Origin: an uncultured Eubacteriales bacterium
GTDB taxonomy: Bacteria; Bacillota; Clostridia; Christensenellales; Aristaeellaceae
Length of the DNA stretch: 64,000 nucleotides
Reading direction: 5' to 3'
NCBI GenBank assembly: GCA_902761755.1
Contig: CACWLP010000009.1
Location: 46,706-110,705 of the forward strand
In this document: positions 35,003 to 45,568 of the stretch, piece after piece
Position numbering within the stretch: position 1 is the stretch's first letter
Layout of the letters: the number at the start of each line of letters is the position of its first letter
Notes under the pieces: generated by a model
Seen by the model: the letters and a program-made list of their open reading frames with translations, nothing else
What the model was told of the DNA's origin: nothing
Database searches by the model: none
Translations under genes and position numbers: made by a program

Positions 35003-36580
35003 TCAGTTGCCGATGCCCTCGATGCCCCGCAGGATCTCCGGCTCCCGCACGTCCCGCACGGTGGTGAACACCTTCCGGGTCAGCAGCGCGCCGCCCCGGT
35101 AATACATGCAGACGAAAGGGCAGTCCGCGGCGAACAGGTCCTGGATCTGCCAGAGGATGCTCTGGTATTCGTCAAATTCCTTGGCGGTGCGGAGGGATTT
35201 GAAGAGCTTATCCATATCCTGGGATTTATAGCCCACGTAGTTTCCCGTGTTCCCGCTCATGAGCAGGAAGCCGGGATCCGGCACCGTGTCCATCTGGAAG
35301 GCGGCGATGGCCATATCGAAGTTCCGGGCATCCAGATGCTCCTTCACGTTGCTGAAATTGGCCACCGTGACGGCCACCTCGATGCCCACGGCCTGCAGAT
35401 AATCCGCGATCTTGTTGGCCACCTGCAGCCGCACGGCGTTATCCTGTTCCTCATAGACATAGAGCCGCAGCCGCAGCCGCCGGGCCTTGCTTTCGCCCTT
35501 GACGGTGACGGTGGTATGGCGGATGCCGTTGTCCCTTTCCGGGTCCGCCTTCCATCCGGCCTCCTCCAGCAGCGCCCGGGCCTTGTCCGGGTCGTAGCCG
35601 TATTCGTCGCTGTCCCGGTACATCCATGTGCCCACGGGCATGGGGGTATCGGTCCGCCAGGCCATGCCCATGTACACGCTGTTGGCGATGGCGTCAAAGT
35701 CGATGGCGCAGCGGATGGCCTTGCGCACCAGAGGATTGTCCAGGGGGAATGCGATGGAGGCGTTGTGATTGAGCAGCAGCACCTCCAATTGCCGGGTGCG
35801 GTAGGCGATGTTCAGGTTGGTCAGCCCAGTCTGGTACTGCCCGGCGGAGGCGGAGCGGGTGATGGCCGCATCCACCCGGTTGTACTCGTAATCGGAGATC
35901 AGATCCCGGTTGGTGGCCCGGAAGGTAATGTTGACGGTTTTCACCGTGGGCGGCGTCTGCCACCAGTTCTCATTGGCGGAAAGGTACAGGTAATTCGCGG
36001 GCACGAAGCTGTCCACCTTGAACGGTCCCGTCCCCAGGGGAACCTGGCTCTGCACCTGATCCCGGGGCAGCACCGGGAAGGTCAGGGCGTAATACACGCC
36101 GTAGTACGGCCGGCTCACCGTGATGCGCAGGCTCTCCGCGCTGTTGGCCGATACGTCGCTGATGATGTATTTGAGCTGGCTGTACGCGCCGCGCTTTTCC
36201 TCCGCCAGCCGCAGGATCTCCCGGATGGTGGCCTCCGCGTCGTAAGCGGTGCAGGGCGTGCCGTCGTGGAAGGTGACGCCCTGCCGCATGGTGACGGTCC
36301 AGATCTTCCCGCTGTTGTCCGGGTCGCACCGGACGGCCAGGCAGGGCACGGGCTTGTAATCATCGTCCAGGGCGAAGAGCCCCTCGTAGATCAGCGCCGT
36401 GACGGATTGGAATTCCCTTTCCTCGGGCACCAGGGGGTTCAGATACTGGGTCTTTACCGAGATCAGGCCCAGGGACAGGCTGCTGTCCATGGTGGAGGCC
36501 CCGGCGGGGGCGGGCCAGCAGAGCAGCAGGATCATTGCCGCGCAGACGAGCTTAATACCGGTACTGTTGGTAGATCGCAT
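35003..36580 (-). CDS. Peptide/nickel-type ABC substrate-binding protein (SBP_bac_5)
   Basis: A 525-residue extracellular binding protein with a signal peptide at 1-28 (ending APAGAS) and no lipobox. Family-5 marks are seen in the segments FHDGTPCTAYDAEATIREI near 101 and DPDKARALLEEAGWKADP near 330. No permease or ATPase genes are nearby, so it may serve a distant importer or act as a sensor or wall-associated protein. The start lies inside the end of the transglycosylase gene (29-nt overlap), implying coupling. Confidence 0.85.
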   Translation of the reverse strand: MRSTNSTGIKLVCAAMILLLCWPAPAGASTMDSSLSLGLISVKTQYLNPLVPEEREFQSVTALIYEGLFALDDDYKPVPCLAVRCDPDNSGKIWTVTMRQGVTFHDGTPCTAYDAEATIREILRLAEEKRGAYSQLKYIISDVSANSAESLRITVSRPYYGVYYALTFPVLPRDQVQSQVPLGTGPFKVDSFVPANYLYLSANENWWQTPPTVKTVNITFRATNRDLISDYEYNRVDAAITRSASAGQYQTGLTNLNIAYRTRQLEVLLLNHNASIAFPLDNPLVRKAIRCAIDFDAIANSVYMGMAWRTDTPMPVGTWMYRDSDEYGYDPDKARALLEEAGWKADPERDNGIRHTTVTVKGESKARRLRLRLYVYEEQDNAVRLQVANKIADYLQAVGIEVAVTVANFSNVKEHLDARNFDMAIAAFQMDTVPDPGFLLMSGNTGNYVGYKSQDMDKLFKSLRTAKEFDEYQSILWQIQDLFAADCPFVCMYYRGGALLTRKVFTTVRDVREPEILRGIEGIGN

Positions 36581-37490
36581 AGCCTTCAAGCACCTTCTTT
36601 GCATAATGCCGGGTATCGTCCTTGGGGATCTGCGCCAGCGTCAGGGTCCTCCCGTCGGCGGAGTAATTCTTCAGCCAGCTCTGCACGCTGCCCCATCCCG
36701 CGTGATAAGCGCACGCCACCAGGATGGGGTCGTCGGTGCCCAGATGATTGATGATGTACCTGAGCAGGTAACACCCCATCTTGATGGAGGGCTCCGGCTC
36801 ATACAGAATGGAGATATCCGCGTTCCGGTATCCGCAGTTTTTGCTGACCCAATCAAAAGTGTCGGGCATGAACTGCATCAGGCCCCGGGCGTCCTTGCTG
36901 CTGACCGCCCGGGGATCATAATTGCTTTCCTGCTTGATAATGGCCGACACATAGGCGGGATCGAGGCTGTTGAGGGCGGCGTAGTATTCGATCAGATCCC
37001 GGTATTTCACCTGATAGGAATCCACCTTGCTGGCCCAGTCCAGTTCCCGCTGGATCTGCTCCTCCAGCGCCACGTGCACCCGGGAAGCCTCGTCCTTGGC
37101 CCCGGTCCACAGCCCGATGTGCATCACCAGCGCCGCCGTGAGCAGCGCCAGCGCCGCGATCGGCGCCCAGACCGGCACGCGCCGCCTGCTTTTCCGCCGC
37201 ACTGCGGCGCGCCGGGGCTGCTGCTGCGCCGGGATTTGCGCCGGCGCCCGTGCCGGGGCCGTTTGCTGCTCCGCCGGCCAGAAGCGCTGCCAATCCGAGG
37301 GTGTCTGCCATGCCTGGTCCGGAGGCGTCTGCCACGCCTGATCCGGGGGCGTCTGCCACGCCTGATCCGGGGGCGCCTGCCACGCCTGATCCGGGGGCGT
37401 CTGCGCCGGGGGCTGCTGCTGTGCCCATCGCTGGGACCGCCGGTTCCGCTGGGCGGCCGGGGCTGTCCGGATGGGAGGAAGATCGTTCAT
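36552..37490 (-). CDS. Membrane-anchored lytic transglycosylase (SLT domain) with PPDQAWQT repeats
   Basis: A 312-residue peptidoglycan-cleaving enzyme with a cytoplasmic N-terminus. Residues 31-62 are four copies of an 8-residue unit, TPPDQAWQ. A basic patch (RRKSRRR near 100) is followed by a membrane helix (about 108-127) and an extracellular SLT domain. The domain has the catalytic Glu in AIIKQESNYDPRAVS and then GLMQFMPDTFDW. TTG at 37493 has better spacing to GAAGGAG, but ATG at 37490 is more usual. It lies 26 nt after coaE and overlaps the SBP gene. Confidence 0.9.
   Translation of the reverse strand: MNDLPPIRTAPAAQRNRRSQRWAQQQPPAQTPPDQAWQAPPDQAWQTPPDQAWQTPPDQAWQTPSDWQRFWPAEQQTAPARAPAQIPAQQQPRRAAVRRKSRRRVPVWAPIAALALLTAALVMHIGLWTGAKDEASRVHVALEEQIQRELDWASKVDSYQVKYRDLIEYYAALNSLDPAYVSAIIKQESNYDPRAVSSKDARGLMQFMPDTFDWVSKNCGYRNADISILYEPEPSIKMGCYLLRYIINHLGTDDPILVACAYHAGWGSVQSWLKNYSADGRTLTLAQIPKDDTRHYAKKVLEGYAIYQQYRY
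37305..37400 (-). repeat. Four 24-nt tandem repeats in the transglycosylase gene
   Basis: Each unit encodes TPPDQAWQ (one has APPDQAWQ). The copies are nearly identical at DNA level, which indicates recent expansion by slippage or recombination. Confidence 0.9.
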
Positions 37491-37516
37491 CAATGCGCGT
37501 TTTCTCCTTCAGGGGG

Positions 37517-38107: not shown

Positions 38108-40653
38108 TTGGTTTCAAACCAGCTTTCGCCCGTTTTCACTTCCGCCACCAGCGGCACCTTCAGCGCGAATACCTCTTCCATGCACTTCTGCAGCAGGCCG
38201 GCCACCCGCTCCTTTTCCTCCCGCGGCGCTTCGATGAGCAGCTCGTCGTGCACCTGCAGGATCAGCCGGGCCTGCAGCCCCTCTTTTTTCAGCGCTTCGT
38301 GCACCCGCACCATGGCCAGCTTGATGATGTCCGCCGCCGTGCCCTGCACCGGGGTGTTCATGGCCGCCCGCTCCCCGAAGGAGCGCACGTTGGCGTTGGA
38401 GGACTTGAGCTCCGGCAGGTGCCGCCGGCGGCCCATCATGGTTTCGGCATAGCCGCTGTCGTAGCCCTTTTTCACCGCCTCGTCCATAAAGCGCTTCACC
38501 CCGGGATAGCGCCGGAAATACCGGGCGATGAAATCCGCGGCCTCCCGGCGGCTGACGCCGATGTTCCGCGCCAGGCCGAATTCGCTGATGCCGTACACCA
38601 GGCCGAAATTCACCGCCTTGGCGCTGGAGCGCATGTCCCTGGTCACCTGCTCCATGGGCACGCCGTACACCTCCGCCGCCGTGCGGGCGTGAATGTCCTG
38701 CCCCTTCCGGAAGGCGTCCACCATAGCGTCGTCCCCGGAAAAATGCGCCATCACCCGCAGCTCGATCTGGCTGTAATCCGCATCCGCCAGCACGCAGCCC
38801 GGGGCGGCGATGAAGGCCTTGCGGATCTCCCGCCCCATCTCCGTGCGGACGGGGATATTCTGCAGATTGGGCTCGCTGGAAGAAATGCGGCCCGTGGCGG
38901 TGCCGGTCTGATCGAAATAGGAATGCACCCGGCCGGACCCGTCCATTTTTCGCAGCAGGGCGTCGATGTAGGTGCTGTTCAGCTTCACCGCCTGGCGGTA
39001 TTTCAGGATTTTTTCGATGCAGGGATGCAGATCCGCCAGCTTTTCCAGGGTCTCCGCGTCGGTGGAATAGCCCTTCTGGGTCTTTTTTCCGTGGGGCAGA
39101 TCCAGCGTCTCGAACAGCACCTTTCCCAGCTGCTGGGGGCTGTTGAGGTTGAAGCCCCGCACCCCGGTGAGGCGGTAGACCTCTTCCTTGAGCTCCTCCG
39201 CAGCCCTGGTGAATTCCGCTCCCAGGCCCCGCAGCACCTCCGCGTCCACCCGGAACCCCGCCTGCTCCATATCGAACAGCACGTACAGAAGCGGCATTTC
39301 CACGTCCCGCATCAGCTTTTCCATGCCCTCCCGCCGAAGCTGCTTTTCCTGCTTCCGCGCAAGGGTCAGCACGCCCCAGGCGTCCTCCCGGGCGAAATTT
39401 TTCAGCGCGTAGGATTTTTCCTGGGGATTGCGCAGGTACGCCCCCAGCATGGTATCCCAGAAAAAAACAGGCAGCGGCAGGCCCTGATCGGAAAGCATGT
39501 GCAGCAGCGCCTTGCCGTCGTGCACGCAGAGCTTTTCTTCTTTCATCAGCGGGGCGACCGCCTGCCACGCTTCCTCGGGCAGCAGCCCGCCGGAGAGCAT
39601 ATCCTGCTGCAATCGGATCTGTGCCAGCACGCCCTTTCCCGCCAGGGTCATGGTAACGGGCGTCACGTGGATGGCCGCCGTTTCCCCGCGGATCTCCCCC
39701 AGGAAAGCGGCGATCTCCTCCCGGGTGGACAGCGTCCTCTCCTCCGGCGCGGCGTCCTCCTCCCCGTTTTCCTCCTCCGGGGCGGGCGCATCCGCCCCCG
39801 CCAGCTTTTCCAGCCGCCCGGCCATGCCGTTCAGCTGATATTTTTTCAGGGTTTTCAGCCCTTCGCCCATATGCGAAGCGTCAAACGCCGCCAGATCGAA
39901 AACGATGGGGGCCGTGGGCCGGATGGTGGCCAGGTCCTTGGAAAACCGGGCCAGTTCCGCGTTCTCCCGCACCTTTTCCCCCAGCTTGCCCTTGATCTCG
40001 TTTCCATGGGCCAGCACGTTTTCCAGGCTGCCGTATTCGTCCAGCAGCTTCACCGCCGTCTTTTCCCCCACGCCGGGGATGCCGGGGATGTTGTCGCTGC
40101 TGTCGCCCATGAGGCCCTTCCAGTCCGTCACCTGCTCCGGGCTGACCCCGAAGTACTCCCGCACCCCCGCGGCGTCGAACAGCGTGCTCTCCGTGATGCC
40201 CTTCCGGGTGAAAAGCACCTTCGTCCCGTTCCCCACCAGCTGCAGCGCGTCCCGGTCCCCGGTGAGGATCACGCAGTCCATCCCCGCCTCCCGGCACTTG
40301 GCGGCCAGGGTGCCCAGGATGTCGTCCGCCTCGTATCCTTCGGCGGTCAGCACGCCCAGGCGCATATCGGAAAGGATCTCCTTGATGATGCCAAACTGCG
40401 GCCGCAGCTCCTCCGGCGTAGCCCGGCGGCCCGCCTTGTAATCCGCGTAGGCGACGTGGCGGAAGGTGGGCCCGTGCAGATCGAAAGCCACGGCGGCATA
40501 CCGGGGGCCGATCTCCTGCACCGCCTTGAACAGCATGGCCAGAAAGCCGTGCACGGCGTTGGTGTACACCCCGTCCGCGTCCATCAGCGGCAGGGCGTGA
40601 AAGGCCCGGTGCATCAGGCTGTTCCCGTCCACCGCCAGCAGCGTTTCCCGCAT
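38104..40653 (-). CDS. polA: DNA polymerase I
   Basis: Repair and Okazaki-fragment polymerase of 849 residues. The N-terminal 5' nuclease (to about 290) carries AVDGNSLMHRAF and DWKGLMGDSSDNIPGIPGVG. The middle 3'-5' exonuclease domain keeps its size but lacks the DxE active-site acids, so proofreading is absent, as in Bacillus Pol I. Polymerase motifs A (DADYSQIELRVMAHFSGD), B (RSSAKAVNFGLVYGIS) and C (QVHDELLIE) are intact. An ATG at 40653 follows GAGGTG. It is first in the polA-coaE-slt-sbp-ylmC run. Confidence 0.97.
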   Translation of the reverse strand: MRETLLAVDGNSLMHRAFHALPLMDADGVYTNAVHGFLAMLFKAVQEIGPRYAAVAFDLHGPTFRHVAYADYKAGRRATPEELRPQFGIIKEILSDMRLGVLTAEGYEADDILGTLAAKCREAGMDCVILTGDRDALQLVGNGTKVLFTRKGITESTLFDAAGVREYFGVSPEQVTDWKGLMGDSSDNIPGIPGVGEKTAVKLLDEYGSLENVLAHGNEIKGKLGEKVRENAELARFSKDLATIRPTAPIVFDLAAFDASHMGEGLKTLKKYQLNGMAGRLEKLAGADAPAPEEENGEEDAAPEERTLSTREEIAAFLGEIRGETAAIHVTPVTMTLAGKGVLAQIRLQQDMLSGGLLPEEAWQAVAPLMKEEKLCVHDGKALLHMLSDQGLPLPVFFWDTMLGAYLRNPQEKSYALKNFAREDAWGVLTLARKQEKQLRREGMEKLMRDVEMPLLYVLFDMEQAGFRVDAEVLRGLGAEFTRAAEELKEEVYRLTGVRGFNLNSPQQLGKVLFETLDLPHGKKTQKGYSTDAETLEKLADLHPCIEKILKYRQAVKLNSTYIDALLRKMDGSGRVHSYFDQTGTATGRISSSEPNLQNIPVRTEMGREIRKAFIAAPGCVLADADYSQIELRVMAHFSGDDAMVDAFRKGQDIHARTAAEVYGVPMEQVTRDMRSSAKAVNFGLVYGISEFGLARNIGVSRREAADFIARYFRRYPGVKRFMDEAVKKGYDSGYAETMMGRRRHLPELKSSNANVRSFGERAAMNTPVQGTAADIIKLAMVRVHEALKKEGLQARLILQVHDELLIEAPREEKERVAGLLQKCMEEVFALKVPLVAEVKTGESWFETK

Positions 40654-40682
40654 CGCAATCACCTCGCGCAGTCATTCGCTTC

Positions 40683-40711
40683 AGTATACCACAGGTTGTG
40701 GAAAATGAAAA
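40683..40711 (-). promoter_or_regulatory. Promoter of the polA operon
   Basis: TTTTCA, 17 nt, TATACT read leftward. The spacer carries a small palindrome, CCACAGGTTGTGG (40689-40701). Confidence 0.6.
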
Positions 40712-40815
40712 GAAAATACTGCGGAATTGTTGCAAATTGTTTACAATACCTCCGCATGCCTTTTTCCAGAAAACGCAAAAAAGCTTTCCCCCGGAGGGGA
40801 AGGCGCAGTCTGTCG

Positions 40816-40979
40816 AAAACCCCGGGGATGCATCGAAGGGGCCGCAGCCCCTTCGATTCTCATCCGCAGGCGGCGGCATGTACGTCGCCGAGGAGCAAAT
40901 GGAATTTGCTTCCGCTATCAATTTCTGGCCGCAAAATGAGCGTTTTCGCTGGCGAAAATGCCATTTTGCAAGAAATTGA
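40816..40979. repeat. Structured dispersed repeat, copy 2
   Basis: Same order of elements as 12617-12737: AAAACCCCGGGG, then a 10-bp hairpin (TCGAAGGGGC 40833-40842 with GCCCCTTCGA 40847-40856), ATCCGCAG, a GGCG/CGCC hairpin, GAGGAGCA, and a long stem. That stem includes ATCAATTTCT (40915-40924) with AGAAATTGAT (40970-40979) and GCAAAATG with CATTTTGC. The first hairpin differs from copy 1 at paired positions on both arms. Confidence 0.65.
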
Positions 40980-40984
40980 TGGAT

Positions 40985-41018
40985 CGAAAAAAGCGGAATC
41001 CCCATTCCGCTTTTTTCG
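40985..41018 (-). terminator. Strong bidirectional terminator hairpin
   Basis: A 15-bp stem (40985-40999 with 41004-41018) has a CCCC loop, an AAAAAA run on one side and TTTTTT on the other. It would end the sigma/anti-sigma transcript. Confidence 0.85.
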
Positions 41019-41050
41019 CAGGGTGTCGAAAATTCTTTTTCGACACCCTG
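41019..41050. repeat. Inverted repeat adjoining the terminator
   Basis: CAGGGTGTCGA (41019-41029) pairs with TCGACACCCTG (41040-41050), and the stem extends through A/T pairs. It lies directly between the terminator and the two-hairpin unit. Confidence 0.75.
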
Positions 41051-41103
41051 AGCCTTCCCCTTGAGGGGAAGGTGGGCCGCGAAGCGGCTCGGATAAGGTG
41101 TTT
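41051..41103. repeat. Non-coding copy of the 51-nt two-hairpin unit
   Basis: Aligns end to end with the tandem units at 43430-43800. Stem 1 is CCTTCCCC/GGGGAAGG, as in the coding copies. Stem 2 is GCCGC-GAA-GCGGC here but GGCCCC-AAA-GGGGCC there. The final CGGATAAGGTGT matches CGGATGAGGTGT. It ends at the stop codon of the anti-sigma-like gene. Confidence 0.8.
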
Positions 41104-42400
41104 ATTCCAGATCGACCATTGCCGTCATATTTTTTTCTTCCTCCGTCACGGCTTCCTGCCGCCGGCACACCTCCCGGGTGGCGGGGCATCCCATCAGCAT
41201 CCCGTCTTCCTCCCGGCAGGGCACGATATACACCCGGTCCGTGGGCCGGGACAGGCTCACATGGGTTTCGTACAGCATGCTGCCGTCCTCCTCAAGACGG
41301 CAGTTGCCGCCGTACCACTTGGTTTCCGCGTCCTCCGCCAGCACCGCGAAGCTCCAGCGCCAGCTGCCGTCATCCTCCGCCACGGGAGCGCCGTCCTCTC
41401 GGCTGATCCGCAGGCGCAGGAAAACGGCGTCCACCGAAACATCCATTTTTTCCAGCGTCACTTTCTCGCCCTCCGGCAGGGTGAGCAGGGGCCGATTTTC
41501 CACCGTGTGCACGGGAGCCGGCCTGGTTTCAAACCGGAACACCGCCTGATCCACGCGCCGGAAAACCCCCAGGTCCACCGCGTTCTGCCATACGTCCTTC
41601 GCTTCCTTTTCCCCGCCGTCGATCCCGTCCTGCTGGGGGAGGCAGGCCAGGTACCACCAGGGATCGGCGTACTGATCCAGCATGATTTTCCCATCCCGGT
41701 AGGCGTCGGCAAACTGCTGCTCGTGGAGCGCGTACTGCGCGTCCGTCCATTCCTCCTCGCCGATCCCCGGCTCATCCTCCTCAGTGAACACGATGGGCAG
41801 CGCAGGCTGATAAATCTCGTACACGATTTCCCATTCTACCGGCCCGTCCGCGGGCTGCTCCAGGGCGATTTCCGCGCCGCCGCACGCGTCGTAAGCGACC
41901 ATCCGGCTCAGATCCGGGGCCCAGAAGCCCGCATCGTCATAGCTGCCGCCCAGCCAGGAAACTTCCGCCGCCTCCCCGTTCACCGTTGCCCGCACGCCGG
42001 GCAGCACGAACACCGGGTCCGCCCCCGCTTTGGGGTGGAGCTCCATGGCGGCGGTCAGGCGCATGCCGTCGAAAGCCGCCTCGTTGACGGAAAGGGTGAA
42101 GGCGTCGCATTCGTATGTCTGCCCCACGGTCAGGATCGTGTCCACATAGGCCTGGTTTTCCGCTTTTTCCGGGGCGTGGCGCATCATGTACTGCAATATG
42201 CCGAACCCGCCCGTGGCCAGCGCCGCCGCGGTGGTCGCCAGCATCAGCGCAAGGGCGATCACAAAGCCCACCGACAGTTTTTTCATCGGTTTTCCCTCTC
42301 TTTTCTCCAAGGATCGAAGGACGCTTTTTTGCATTTCCTCCGTCCAGGTCAATGCCGAAAGGGCGCGGTCCGCATGCTCCCGGAACTGTTCATTCTTCAT
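41102..42400 (-). CDS. Membrane-anchored anti-sigma-factor-like protein
   Basis: A 432-residue protein with a cytoplasmic N-terminus (1-38), a membrane helix (about 41-62) and a large extracellular domain rich in acidic and aromatic residues. Its start overlaps the ECF sigma gene by 11 nt. This order and topology are typical of membrane anti-sigma factors that hold the sigma factor with their N-terminal segment. The extracellular part resembles no domain I can name with certainty; DUF4179-type proteins have this build. Assignment as anti-sigma rests on context and topology. Confidence 0.7.
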   Translation of the reverse strand: MKNEQFREHADRALSALTWTEEMQKSVLRSLEKREGKPMKKLSVGFVIALALMLATTAAALATGGFGILQYMMRHAPEKAENQAYVDTILTVGQTYECDAFTLSVNEAAFDGMRLTAAMELHPKAGADPVFVLPGVRATVNGEAAEVSWLGGSYDDAGFWAPDLSRMVAYDACGGAEIALEQPADGPVEWEIVYEIYQPALPIVFTEEDEPGIGEEEWTDAQYALHEQQFADAYRDGKIMLDQYADPWWYLACLPQQDGIDGGEKEAKDVWQNAVDLGVFRRVDQAVFRFETRPAPVHTVENRPLLTLPEGEKVTLEKMDVSVDAVFLRLRISREDGAPVAEDDGSWRWSFAVLAEDAETKWYGGNCRLEEDGSMLYETHVSLSRPTDRVYIVPCREEDGMLMGCPATREVCRRQEAVTEEEKNMTAMVDLE

Positions 42401-42899
42401 CGAAATACCACTCCTTCAGCTGCTGGCGTAGCAATCCGTTGGCCCTGGATAGGCGCCTGCGCACCGCGCCCTCCGTAAGCCCCAGCGCCGCGGCGGTCTC
42501 CCTGAGCTTCAAGCCCTGGTAGTACCGCAGCAGCACCGCTTCCCGGTATTTTGCGTTCAGCCCCAGCACCGCTTGGATCACCGTATCGTCGGGAAAGGAA
42601 AAGGCTTCGGCTTGTTCGGGCAGCGCGTCCGCATCGATCCGGCGGTTCACGTGACGATGCCACGGGGAGCGCAGCATGTCCCGGCAGCAGTTCACCGCGA
42701 TGCGGGACAGCCAGGTGAGCTCCGATGCGTCTCCCCGGAATTTCTCATAATGCCGGTATGCCCTGAAAAACGTTTCCTGCGCGGCGTCCCGGGCCAGGTC
42801 CGCGTCCCCCAGCCGTAAGGCGCACAGGCGCAGGATGCGGCTGCCGTACTGCTCCATCAGCCGGGCGACTGTCTCCCGGCATTCCCCTTCCCTGGGCAC
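42390..42899 (-). CDS. ECF-family RNA polymerase sigma factor
   Basis: A 169-residue sigma-70-family factor. Region 2 includes DAAQETFFRAYRHYEKF (near 45-61) and region 4 is VLLRYYQGLKLRETAAALGLTEGAVRRRLSRA (near 120-151). A GTG at 42899 follows AAAGGGG at good spacing; the frame extends upstream without a ribosome site. It is followed by the membrane anti-sigma-like gene. Upstream, AAACGTACCGTTT (42943-42955) is palindromic and could be part of an autoregulated promoter. Confidence 0.92.
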   Translation of the reverse strand: MPREGECRETVARLMEQYGSRILRLCALRLGDADLARDAAQETFFRAYRHYEKFRGDASELTWLSRIAVNCCRDMLRSPWHRHVNRRIDADALPEQAEAFSFPDDTVIQAVLGLNAKYREAVLLRYYQGLKLRETAAALGLTEGAVRRRLSRANGLLRQQLKEWYFDEE

Positions 42900-42967
42900 G
42901 GCGTTCACCCCTTTCACCCATACAGACGCGGCCAGGCGGAAAAAACGTACCGTTTGGAAAAAAATCT

Positions 42968-42995
42968 TTGCTTCCTGGCGGGAAAATAGTATAAT
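42968..42995 (+). promoter_or_regulatory. Promoter of the nuclease-SNF2 gene
   Basis: TTGCTT, 16 nt, TATAAT, 29 nt before the ATG. It is divergent from the sigma-factor gene. Confidence 0.65.
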
Positions 42996-43024
42996 AGACC
43001 GTGAAAAAACGCAAGGAGATCCCC

Positions 43025-45568
43025 ATGACGGCACAGCAGGTATTGACGGCCCTTTCGGCGATCCGTTCGCCCCGGCCCCAGGATGAATACGATCTGCACG
43101 GCCTGGTGGCCGAGGCGCTGCAGCGGGCGGACATTGAATTCCGCCACGAAGCGTCCCTGGCCCCCCGCTGCCGCATTGATTTCCTGTGCGATTCCGTGGG
43201 CGTTGAGATCAAGCGGGGCCGGCCGGACCGGCAGGCGGTGGAAAAGCAGCTGCGCCGCTACGCGGACACGGGCCGCCTGACCGCCCTGATCCTGGTTTCC
43301 GAAAAATCCCTGCCCGCCCTGCCGGGCTTTCTTTCCGGCATCCCCGTGTACTCCGTGAGTCTCCAGAAGCTCTGGGGCGTCAGCAATGCCTTGGGCGATA
43401 CGCCCCTGCAGGGGCCGGACGACAATCACAGCCTTCCCCTGGAGGAGAAGGCGGCCCCGCAGAGGCCGGATGAGGTGTCCAGCCTTCCCCTGGAGGAGAA
43501 GGCGGCCCCGCAGGGGCCGGATGAGGTGTCAAGCCTTCCCCTGGAGGGGAAGGTGGCCCCGCAGGGACCGGATGAGGTGTCAAGCCTTCCCCTGGAGGGG
43601 AAGGTGGCCCCAAAGGGACCGGATGAGGTGTCCCGCCTTCCCCTGGAGGGGAAGGTGGCCCCAAAGGGACCGGATGAGGTGTCAAGCCTTCCCCTGGAGG
43701 GGAAGGTGGCCCCAAAGGGGCCGGATGAGGTGTCCAGCCTTCCCCTGGAGGGGAAGGTGGCCCCAAAGGGGCCGGATGAGGTGTCCAGCCTTCCCCTGGA
43801 AGATCGGATCCTGCGGGATCTTGAAATAGAGGACGTGCCGCCCTTCCTGCGCACCGCGGAAAACAGCGGGCGCACCTACGGCACCCTATCCTACAACGCC
43901 CGGCGCAGATGCTGGGTGATCCGGGGCGATCCCGCGGTGACGGAACTGGCCAAGCGCCTGTTCCCCGGCAGCGACGCCAAGCGGGGCGAAGCCCGCTTCA
44001 CCGCCCACCGGCGAATCGTGGGGGACGTGAACTGGCTGATGCTGCGCTATCCCCTGGAGGTCGCCCCCCGGGACAAAGCGCGCTGGGACGAGGCCCTGCG
44101 CGCCGCCCGGGAGTATTACCGCGCCCGGGAACGCGCCCGCACCGCGCCCCTCCACGTCCAGCCCTCCCCCGCCGTATTCAGCGGCCAGCTTCGCCCCTTC
44201 CAGCAGGCGGGGCTTTCCTGGCTGCTGCTGACCCCCCGGGCGCTGCTGGCGGATGAAATGGGCCTGGGCAAAACCGTGCAGGCCCTGGCCTGCGCCGCCC
44301 AGGAGGGGATCTTCCCCCTGCTCATCGTGCCCCCGCCTCACCTGTGCCGCAACTGGATGGCCGAAACGCTGCGCTTCCTGCGGGTGGATGGGCGCTTGCC
44401 CCGGGTGCACATCGTCAGGGGCCTCAAGCCCTATCCCCTGCCCGAGGCGGACGTATACATCCTGCATTACCTGCTGCTGCGGGGCTGGAAGGAGGCCCTG
44501 CCGCAGATGCGTTTCCATACCGTGATTTTCGACGAGGTGCAGGAGCTGCGCCGGGCCGGCACGGAAAAATACAGCGCCGCCAGTTTGCTGTCCGAAAGCT
44601 GCGACAGGGTGATGGGCCTTTCGGGCACGCCCATTTACAATTACGGCGGCGAAATCTGGAATGTGATCAACATCCTGGATTATCATTTCCTGGGCGATTG
44701 GGAAACCTTCTCCCGGGAATGGTGCGCGGGATACGGCAACCGCATCGTATTGAAACCCGATCTGCTGGGGGATCACCTGCGCCGGGAGGGGCTGATGCTG
44801 CGGCGCACCAAGCAGGAGGTGCTGCCGGAGCTGCCGGAAAAGCGCCGGCTGGTGCAGGAGATCGACGCGGACGACGCGCTCTACGCCCATCTCATGGCCC
44901 CGGTGTGGGAAAAGCTGTACCGCTGGAAACGCGACCGGGAGCTGACCGCCTCCGCCCGGGCCCTGCTGGAGGATCAGATCAGCCAGGAGGCCCGCCAGGC
45001 CACGGGGCTGGCGAAGGCGCCCTACGTGTGCCAGTTCGTCCGGGCGCTGGTGAACGCCGGGGAAAAGGTGCTTTTGTTCGCCCACCATCACGCGGTGATG
45101 GATCTGTACAAAAAAGAATTGAAAAGCGAGCATCCGGCCTTTATCACCGGCCGGGAGACCGGCGCGAAAAAGGAAGAGGCGGCGGACCGCTTCATGCTGG
45201 GAAAAACCGATCTGTGCTGCGTATCCCTCCGGGCGGCCAGCGGGCTGAACCTGCAAAGGGCCACCTGCGTGGTGTTCGGCGAACTGGACTGGAGCCCCGC
45301 CGTCCATTCCCAGGCGGAGGACCGGGCCCACCGCATCGGGCAGAAGGATTCCCTGCTGTGCTATTACCTGGTGTCCCCCCGGGGCAGCGACCAGGAAATG
45401 CAGGAAGCCCTGGGGCTCAAGGTGAGCCAGTTCCTGGGGCTCATGGGCGACGTGCCCCAGACCGCGGCCCAGACCGCCGCCGGTGCCAATTACGCCCGGC
45501 AGCACGTGGAAAAGCTGGTGCTGGGCCTTCGGGACGGGGACGAAAGCCCGCCGAAAGAAAAAAACTGA
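43025..45568 (+). CDS. PD-(D/E)xK-like nuclease domain fused through tandem repeats to a SNF2 ATPase
   Basis: An 847-residue, three-part protein. Residues 20-110 look like a restriction-type nuclease fold: HEASLAPRCRIDFLC then VGVEIKRG gives Asp52 and ExK (Glu61, Lys63). Residues 136-259 are seven 17-residue repeats (SLPLEGKVAPKGPDEVS type) plus a partial one. From about 390 a SNF2/Swi2 ATPase follows: DEMGLGKT (Lys416), IFDEVQELR as motif II, GLSGTPIYNYGGEIWNVINI as motif III, and SLRAASGLNLQRA with AEDRAHRIGQ near the end. An ATG at 43025 follows AAGGAG. SNF2 proteins remodel or translocate on DNA; in phages they often pair with separate nucleases. A DNA-defence or repair role is inference. 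Confidence 0.82.
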   Translation: MTAQQVLTALSAIRSPRPQDEYDLHGLVAEALQRADIEFRHEASLAPRCRIDFLCDSVGVEIKRGRPDRQAVEKQLRRYADTGRLTALILVSEKSLPALPGFLSGIPVYSVSLQKLWGVSNALGDTPLQGPDDNHSLPLEEKAAPQRPDEVSSLPLEEKAAPQGPDEVSSLPLEGKVAPQGPDEVSSLPLEGKVAPKGPDEVSRLPLEGKVAPKGPDEVSSLPLEGKVAPKGPDEVSSLPLEGKVAPKGPDEVSSLPLEDRILRDLEIEDVPPFLRTAENSGRTYGTLSYNARRRCWVIRGDPAVTELAKRLFPGSDAKRGEARFTAHRRIVGDVNWLMLRYPLEVAPRDKARWDEALRAAREYYRARERARTAPLHVQPSPAVFSGQLRPFQQAGLSWLLLTPRALLADEMGLGKTVQALACAAQEGIFPLLIVPPPHLCRNWMAETLRFLRVDGRLPRVHIVRGLKPYPLPEADVYILHYLLLRGWKEALPQMRFHTVIFDEVQELRRAGTEKYSAASLLSESCDRVMGLSGTPIYNYGGEIWNVINILDYHFLGDWETFSREWCAGYGNRIVLKPDLLGDHLRREGLMLRRTKQEVLPELPEKRRLVQEIDADDALYAHLMAPVWEKLYRWKRDRELTASARALLEDQISQEARQATGLAKAPYVCQFVRALVNAGEKVLLFAHHHAVMDLYKKELKSEHPAFITGRETGAKKEEAADRFMLGKTDLCCVSLRAASGLNLQRATCVVFGELDWSPAVHSQAEDRAHRIGQKDSLLCYYLVSPRGSDQEMQEALGLKVSQFLGLMGDVPQTAAQTAAGANYARQHVEKLVLGLRDGDESPPKEKN
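43430..43800 (+). repeat. Seven and a third tandem 51-nt units within the SNF2 gene
   Basis: Full units start at 43430, 43481, 43532, 43583, 43634, 43685 and 43736, with a partial one from 43787. Each contains CCTTCCCC-TGGA-GGGGAAGG and a GGCCCC/GGGNCC hairpin and encodes 17 residues. The 3' units are the most alike and the first two the most diverged. A degenerate remnant (CAGGGGCCGGACGA, from 43409) precedes unit 1. The length is a multiple of three, so the frame is kept. Confidence 0.97.

Follow-up and report, generated by a model that had tools for sequence, protein, structure and literature searches.

An intergenic palindromic repeat as the likely source of a tandem coding array in the linker of a nuclease-SNF2 ATPase gene

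The window analyzed here, a 64,000-nt stretch of contig CACWLP010000009.1 (assembly GCA_902761755.1) from an uncultured Eubacteriales bacterium, belongs to a draft genome, G000 in our set, of 2.2 Mb in 46 contigs that is 73% complete. It holds a fused gene in which a nuclease-like domain is joined to a SNF2 ATPase through a long linker (Table 1). The C-terminal part of the host ORF matches SNF2-rel_dom (2.7e-23) and Helicase_C (1.5e-11). For the N-terminal domain, no Pfam match above the cut-off was found (the best was NucS_C, E 0.15), and a PDB sequence search returned nothing meaningful. Four residues, R50, D52, E61 and K63, are invariant across 20 aligned homologues of this domain, which we take to be the pattern of PD-(D/E)XK nucleases. 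The AF2 model of the domain is confident (mean pLDDT 90.6); Foldseek matches were weak, none reaching E<=0.001, and several of the best were endonucleases. In the whole-protein model, linker residues 118 to 257 have a pLDDT of about 30 and lack secondary structure to the last residue. Disorder of the linker is thus likely rather than proven, since the whole-protein mean pLDDT was 59.8 and the alignment held 12 sequences. Membership in a defense system was considered and rejected: the PADLOC and NCBIfam matches concern the SNF2 part of ZorD, DpdE, DrmD and others and fall far below the NCBIfam cut-offs.

Table 1. Positions of the features discussed, in window coordinates
Feature	Position	Strand	Remarks
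Intergenic family-1 copy	41051..41101	+	directly 3' of the stop codon of minus-strand ORF 41102-42400; gap before DNA polymerase I gene
Fused gene: PD-(D/E)XK-like domain, hypervariable linker, SNF2 ATPase	43025..45568	+	alternative GTG start at 43001
N-terminal endonuclease-fold domain	43025..43381	+	R50, D52, E61, K63 invariant; AF2; Foldseek
Linker, 152 codons, predicted disordered	43382..43837	+	at the position of the two-gene junction in split-gene outgroups
Unit 1	43430..43480	+	closest to the sister's single unit; decayed hairpins
Unit 2	43481..43531	+	
Unit 3	43532..43582	+	
Unit 4	43583..43633	+	hairpin-2 loop AAA, common to units 4-7
Unit 5	43634..43684	+	
Unit 6	43685..43735	+	identical to unit 7
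Unit 7	43736..43786	+	
14-nt partial unit, or native linker (SLPLE) resembling the unit start	43787..43800	+	
SNF2 ATPase part	43838..45568	+	

Within the linker, Tandem Repeats Finder (TRF) reported an array at 43429-43800 (period 51, 7.3 copies, 95% matches, score 618), the top-scoring of its 8 rows in the window. Read directly, the DNA holds seven full 51-nt units from 43430, followed by AGCCTTCCCCTGGA at 43787-43800, and the units share the frame of ORF 43001/43025-45568; TRF, the DNA reading and the ORF frame agree with the initial annotation, which had described seven in-frame units in an SNF2 ATPase gene. The partial eighth unit that it had added is present as 14 nt, but these may be native linker instead, because the linker of the sister gene ends in the same SLPLED. 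The number of units may be mis-assembled in a draft of this completeness. Unit 6, and with it unit 7, folds at -31.2 kcal/mol (0 of 200 shuffles as good) and unit 1 at -20.4 (z -0.47; 64 of 200 shuffles as good), so that the 5' units have decayed hairpins. The loop of hairpin 2 is GCA in units 1 to 3, as in two natural copies on contig 31, and AAA in units 4 to 7. Recent growth of the array is plausible, units 6 and 7 being identical. Elsewhere in the window, a second tandem array (37293-37404; 24 nt x 4.7) encodes some four QTPPDQAW-like repeats in the N-terminal region of minus-strand ORF 36552-37493, which resembles a lytic transglycosylase, and is perhaps another disordered stretch.

A related sequence lies outside genes at 41051-41101. 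Its fold, at -28.7 kcal/mol (equalled by 0 of 200 shuffles), has two hairpins, the first of which is the same as in the array. The second differs in sequence and length, being GGCCGCGAAGCGGCT here and GGCCCC-AAA/GCA-GGGGCC in the array, and GGATAAGG lies near the end of the copy. The initial annotation had noted this copy as the only one outside the gene, with the same two hairpins and the same end sequence as the array; the copy and its first hairpin are real, but the second hairpin and the end sequence are not shared, and the copy is far from alone. BLAST placed the repeat, which we call family 1, at 8 sites in its own genome besides the array. A covariance model, R1, built from 7 of those 8 copies with the array excluded, gave 21 matches in the genome at E<=0.001, comprising the 7 array units and 14 others, of which 10 are strong and 4 weak (23 to 28 bits, and may include chance matches). 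R1 matches all seven array units over their full length, at 49.7 to 64.8 bits, and the scores climb from 5' to 3', from 49.7 bits for unit 1 to 63.6-64.8 for units 7 and 6. A chance match between the array and the intergenic copies is ruled out by the covariance model.

Family 1 extends through the genus, with matches in at least 19 of 29 genomes, our own included, and at least 148 matches in G020, 124 in G014, 49 in G007, 36 in G004 and 32 in G002, with up to 150 candidates scored in each genome. A covariance-model search was one of the checks proposed in the initial annotation, which had reasoned that a unit of intergenic origin should recur in the genome; it is dispersed in both genome and genus. 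Hairpin 2 is variable among the copies. Core length was measured in 30 of 54 copies, the remainder being 18 of a variant about 89 nt long and 6 from the own genome: 13 cores are 44 nt long, 12 are 48 nt and 5 have other lengths, and the 46 nt of the array unit core was met once. The frame used by the gene is open in 14 of the 30 cores, and all 13 of the 44-nt cores have a stop in it, so only some family-1 variants could be read through in the frame of the gene. A comparison of 40600-44000 with Rfam gave nothing up to E 0.1, and hence no sign of an RNA gene there. A larger block that adjoins the intergenic copy (about 40920-41050) and has a AAAAAAGCGGAAT..ATTCCGCTTTTTT hairpin is seen again next to a further family-1 copy (L006, G000:C2 near 144600), and block and copy may form a composite repeat.

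To tell whether a given copy is read in frame as part of coding sequence, we used a codon-usage test. Its positive controls, which overlap its training genes, scored as coding in 26 of 28 fused linkers and at 116 of 120 random points within genes; none of 24 split-pair spacers did. None of 94 copies sampled outside this linker was called in-gene: 0 of 40 for family 1 in G007, G020, G004 and G002, 0 of 14 for family 1 in the own genome, and 0 of 20 each for two further families described below. The sample was not random, most of it being best or first listed matches, and copies in the linker were left out by design. At the 40 family-1 loci sampled, an inverted partner lay within 200 nt in 26 and a direct one in none (matches of at least 24 bits). 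Sampled intergenic copies are thus often paired in inverted and in no case in direct orientation, and the direct array in the gene is a different arrangement. No mobilizer was found in a search for one transposase, Y1_Tnp (PF01797), which scores above cut-off in 10 of 29 genomes, G020, G014, G007, G004 and G010 not among them. Our own genome has a PF01797 match of 22.9 bits (24.4 with neighbors; cut-off 23) that overlaps a copy of family 3. A RAYT as mobilizer is not supported, PF01797 staying below cut-off in all five genomes that carry family 2 in the linker.

We then compared the gene across the genus. An orthologue was found in 27 of the 28 other genomes and was not found in G024. The linker is hypervariable across the genus, measuring 43 to 116 codons of mostly unrelated sequence in the other 27 orthologues. 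According to the linkers as read and to model scans, none of the 27 carries the array, nor thus the same peptide repeat encoded by unrelated DNA, an outcome the initial annotation had raised as telling against an intergenic origin. G000 and G009 are sisters (SH-aLRT 97), and when R1 was run with filters off on the 27 other genus loci (19+8), its sole match at E<0.05 was in the G009 linker, over the full length (27.2 bits, E 1.3e-6); the next best (12.3 bits, E 0.06) did not lie in a linker. The G009 unit encodes SLPPEGNAAWQRPDEAA and differs from units 1 to 7 at 11, 12, 13, 15, 16, 14 and 14 of 51 positions, respectively. Orthologues without the unit, a single-unit relic in the sister and the order of the units together indicate that one insertion came first and direct tandem growth later, as the initial annotation had supposed in proposing that an intergenic repeat entered the gene and then grew in frame. 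The higher R1 scores of the 3' units require the further assumption that the 5' units have decayed or that the 3' ones have been homogenized. The single G009 unit, a weak one, may itself be a collapsed array, and the linkers are too divergent for a clean empty site.

The reverse direction, in which the array is a native coding repeat that grew from the SLPLE of the linker and the intergenic copies are gene-derived or chance look-alikes, would accommodate the fact that SLPLED also ends the linker of the sister, so that the unit start could be native. We consider it most improbable, because the family is present in at least 19 of 29 genomes and the unit sits in the gene only in G000 and G009, because family-1 copies also occur near split-gene homologues, and because R1, to which the array contributed no copies, aligns with each of the seven units from end to end. 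The array protein was also used to query 297 genomes of the order, a sample with just two other genomes of the genus: the full array was found only in G000, and two further genomes gave weak, partial matches to its peptide (E 2.8e-4 and 6.3e-4).

Two other palindrome families occupy the same linker. Family 2, a unit of about 125 nt with matches in at least 17 of 29 genomes, appears as a 125-nt palindrome in the G007 and G014 linkers, identical in both. The linkers of G010, G020 and G004 carry parts of family 2 together with the GTAGGGGCGGATATCATCCGCCC palindrome, family 3, and those of G020 and G004 a second, inverted family-3 palindrome. The 22-mer of family 3 is present as an exact match in 15 of 29 genomes, 176 times in G004, and its reversed control in none. 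In the L020 and L021 linkers, the two inverted family-3 palindromes lie some tens of nucleotides apart, like inverted pairs elsewhere, and L017 (G010) has one closed palindrome, which looks like the outcome of an in-frame deletion of the middle part. Counting all three families, 7 of 28 orthologues have at least one in the linker (in one case the decayed unit), and all are open: family 1 in 2, family 2 in 5 and family 3 in 3, which indicates at least three in-frame insertions. The five species with family 2 in the linker belong to one clade (97) that also contains G021; since G021 has neither family 2 nor family 3, one loss or an extra gain is needed. In G007 and G014 (L016 and L019), whose genes are 93.7% identical, an identical run of 202 nt covers the family-2 element; we do not take it as a sign of constraint, since a second identical run, of 132 nt in the SNF2 part, makes recent recombination as likely. 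Away from this gene, locus L090 (G000:C2:27992-28165) has five direct family-3 copies at 1501-1675 with a 38-nt period, and no open frame spans all five, so tandem growth of palindromes occurs also outside genes in G000.

The linker has a history older than these palindromes. Of the best 80 loci listed by a homologue scan, 62 belong to Clostridia or related Bacillota; most of these are gut MAGs, and some bear the name Christensenella or Christensenellaceae. The other 18, from Thaumarchaeota, matched in the SNF2 part and were left out. We take the group of homologues to be probably Christensenellales. Both parts were present in 88 of 91 loci examined, and once 7 repeats of genus loci were dropped, the tree held 81 rows. 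In 41 of them, among homologues from the best matches listed, the two domains are separate neighboring genes, with no more than 20 nt between the conserved parts in 10. The 40 fused rows form one side of a single branch (SH-aLRT 98), by which the fusion arose once. Rooted on L161, the tree places two adjacent genes as the ancestral state and the linker at their former junction; it is of the "quick" kind and has some long branches, such as L152 among the fused rows. Family-1 copies lie between the separate genes in two split outgroups, one copy in L136 and two in L115, where the second overlaps the open frame that runs upstream of the SNF2 gene, the start codon of which is uncertain. Other repeats may also occur at the split-gene junction: the split-pair spacers of L135, L145, L112 and L118 have hairpins between the genes, at p 0.024-0.049 uncorrected for 71 tests. 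With 71 spacers and linkers examined and only 40 shuffles, giving a floor of 0.024, the hairpin test is illustrative.

With family-1 copies between the unfused genes of L115 and L136, one might suppose that the palindromes arrived before the fusion, when an intergenic spacer still separated the genes, and that the fusion then carried them into the protein. We give this very little credence, because all 40 fused rows descend from the one branch to which the fusion maps, the palindromes occur nested within subclades of the genus, and the linkers of the remaining fused rows gave no match to any of the three families. It is also highly unlikely that the palindromes are untranslated, the apparent fusion being read as two proteins by internal start or reinitiation and the linker being a spacer with ordinary intergenic repeats. 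The separate parts in about half of the tree rows, the copies between them in L115 and L136, and a linker that turns over like a spacer would all fit such an arrangement. Against it stand the 28 genus linkers, with 20 different lengths from 129 to 456 nt, every one a multiple of 3 and stop-free in frame, as compared with stops in 21 and 22 of the 28 in the other two frames.

Insertion of an intergenic palindrome, followed by growth in frame, leaves the question of whether the array is itself selected, for instance as a contingency locus in which copy number tunes the length of the tether between nuclease and ATPase. In-frame growth, the identity of the last two units and the predicted disorder of the linker are what such tuning would produce. 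We regard it as unlikely all the same: 5 of the 8 sites that vary among the units change an amino acid, no fewer than chance suggests (113 of 153 possible single changes do so), and the other 27 orthologues make do with linkers of other lengths and mostly unrelated sequence. The peptide of the array shows no sign of protection in these comparisons, though eight sites are few. The repeats are presumably translated and would lack a selected function.

We therefore favor, with considerable confidence, a model in which a dispersed intergenic palindrome was inserted in frame in the nuclease-SNF2 linker and then grew to seven direct copies. The source would be a REP/BIME-like repeat with two hairpins, normally intergenic, with cores of 44 to 51 nt and a variant of about 89 nt. 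It would have entered the unstructured linker in the common ancestor of the G000 species and G009, and growth to seven direct, in-frame copies would have followed in the lineage of the window, with the oldest units at the 5' end. The growth step would most likely be slippage or unequal recombination at the hairpin-forming unit and, 51 nt being a multiple of 3, every such step would have kept the frame. The linker appears to change like an intergenic spacer, except that selection would purge frame-breaking or stop-bearing changes, and relaxed selection on the tether could be the reason for this tolerance. A bolder proposal is that this linker acts as a favored sink for palindromes, as perhaps do the unstructured linkers of DNA-processing enzymes at large: palindromes would be taken up there, held in frame and amplified more than tolerance alone would give, because palindrome-rich repair genes gain heritable length variability; we consider it speculative and rather doubtful. 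If it were true, the locus would be a natural series of protein segments born from spacer DNA.

Several classes of palindromic repeats invite comparison with this case. Rickettsia palindromic elements (RPEs) were reportedly described by Ogata et al. in 2000 and 2002. As presented in excerpts of PMC10969869 and PMC4316617, they are dispersed palindromes of several families, about 100 to 150 nt long, that lie in frame within genes without disrupting them, in many copies and many different genes; an excerpt of PMC2996958 places them typically in non-structured protein segments. Family 1 likewise contributes in-frame palindromes within a gene, and the linker palindromes are in-frame insertions in a gene that has kept its frame. 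It differs from RPEs in occupying one gene only, with no recurrent insertion in many unrelated genes seen in the non-random sample of 94, in forming a direct tandem array, and in coming from a different phylum. As to length, family-1 cores measure mostly 44 to 51 nt (30 copies measured of 54) and family 2 about 125 nt. MITEs, non-autonomous palindromic elements that can make in-frame fusions with ORFs (PMC10969869; PMC5896051 concerns MITEs of Coxiella), are similar in that palindromic elements are joined to ORFs, as in the linker; here, no target duplication or parent transposon was seen, the parent being sought by PF01797.

GTAG/CGTC REPs are described in the available part of PMC3733652 as mostly intergenic, with units close together in opposite orientation, and as sometimes coding in ORFs of several species. 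The same excerpt reports that many hosts of intragenic REPs are DNA synthesis or repair genes, that the clusters encode 43 to 82 amino acids, and that different REPs lie at about the same recB site in two Xanthomonas; it describes no series from spacer through single unit to array. The tag is absent from 7 aligned family-1 copies, although family 3 begins with GTAG, and Y1_Tnp does not appear to be tied to the abundance of the repeats here. PARCELs, according to an excerpt of PMC2996958, are tandem palindromic coding repeats of 25 residues, amphipathic and associated with membrane proteins. The array shares with them tandem peptide repeats from DNA with dyad symmetry, but its unit has 17 residues, is predicted to be disordered and without secondary structure, and belongs to an SNF2 protein, so that the PARCEL trait was not found. 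In addition, the intergenic source family is in hand here, and the words "intergenic" and "noncoding" are absent from the main text of PMC2996958. The case works like an RPE turned into a PARCEL-like array, yet the comparisons made here place it in neither class. With its short, high-copy, mostly intergenic palindromes (0 of 54 sampled outside the linker in a gene), often in inverted pairs, family 1 is most aptly classed as a REP/BIME-like element, one copy of which is coding and has grown in tandem.

In the titles and abstract openings surveyed, no tandem coding array traced to an intergenic palindrome was described. In-frame palindromes, such as RPEs and intragenic REPs, and palindromic coding arrays, such as PARCELs, were known before, and the parts of that literature at hand contain no intermediates that link them. 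What is new here is a polarized series from spacer to array and the presence of three families in one linker. One gene displays the steps on its tree: split with a repeat between the parts, fused without one, with one decayed coding unit, and with a seven-unit array. A linker that takes up three repeat families while keeping its frame in 28 of 28 orthologues offers a tractable case of spacer DNA feeding protein evolution outside Rickettsia, in a gut bacterium in which spacer-like DNA is visibly becoming protein-coding sequence.
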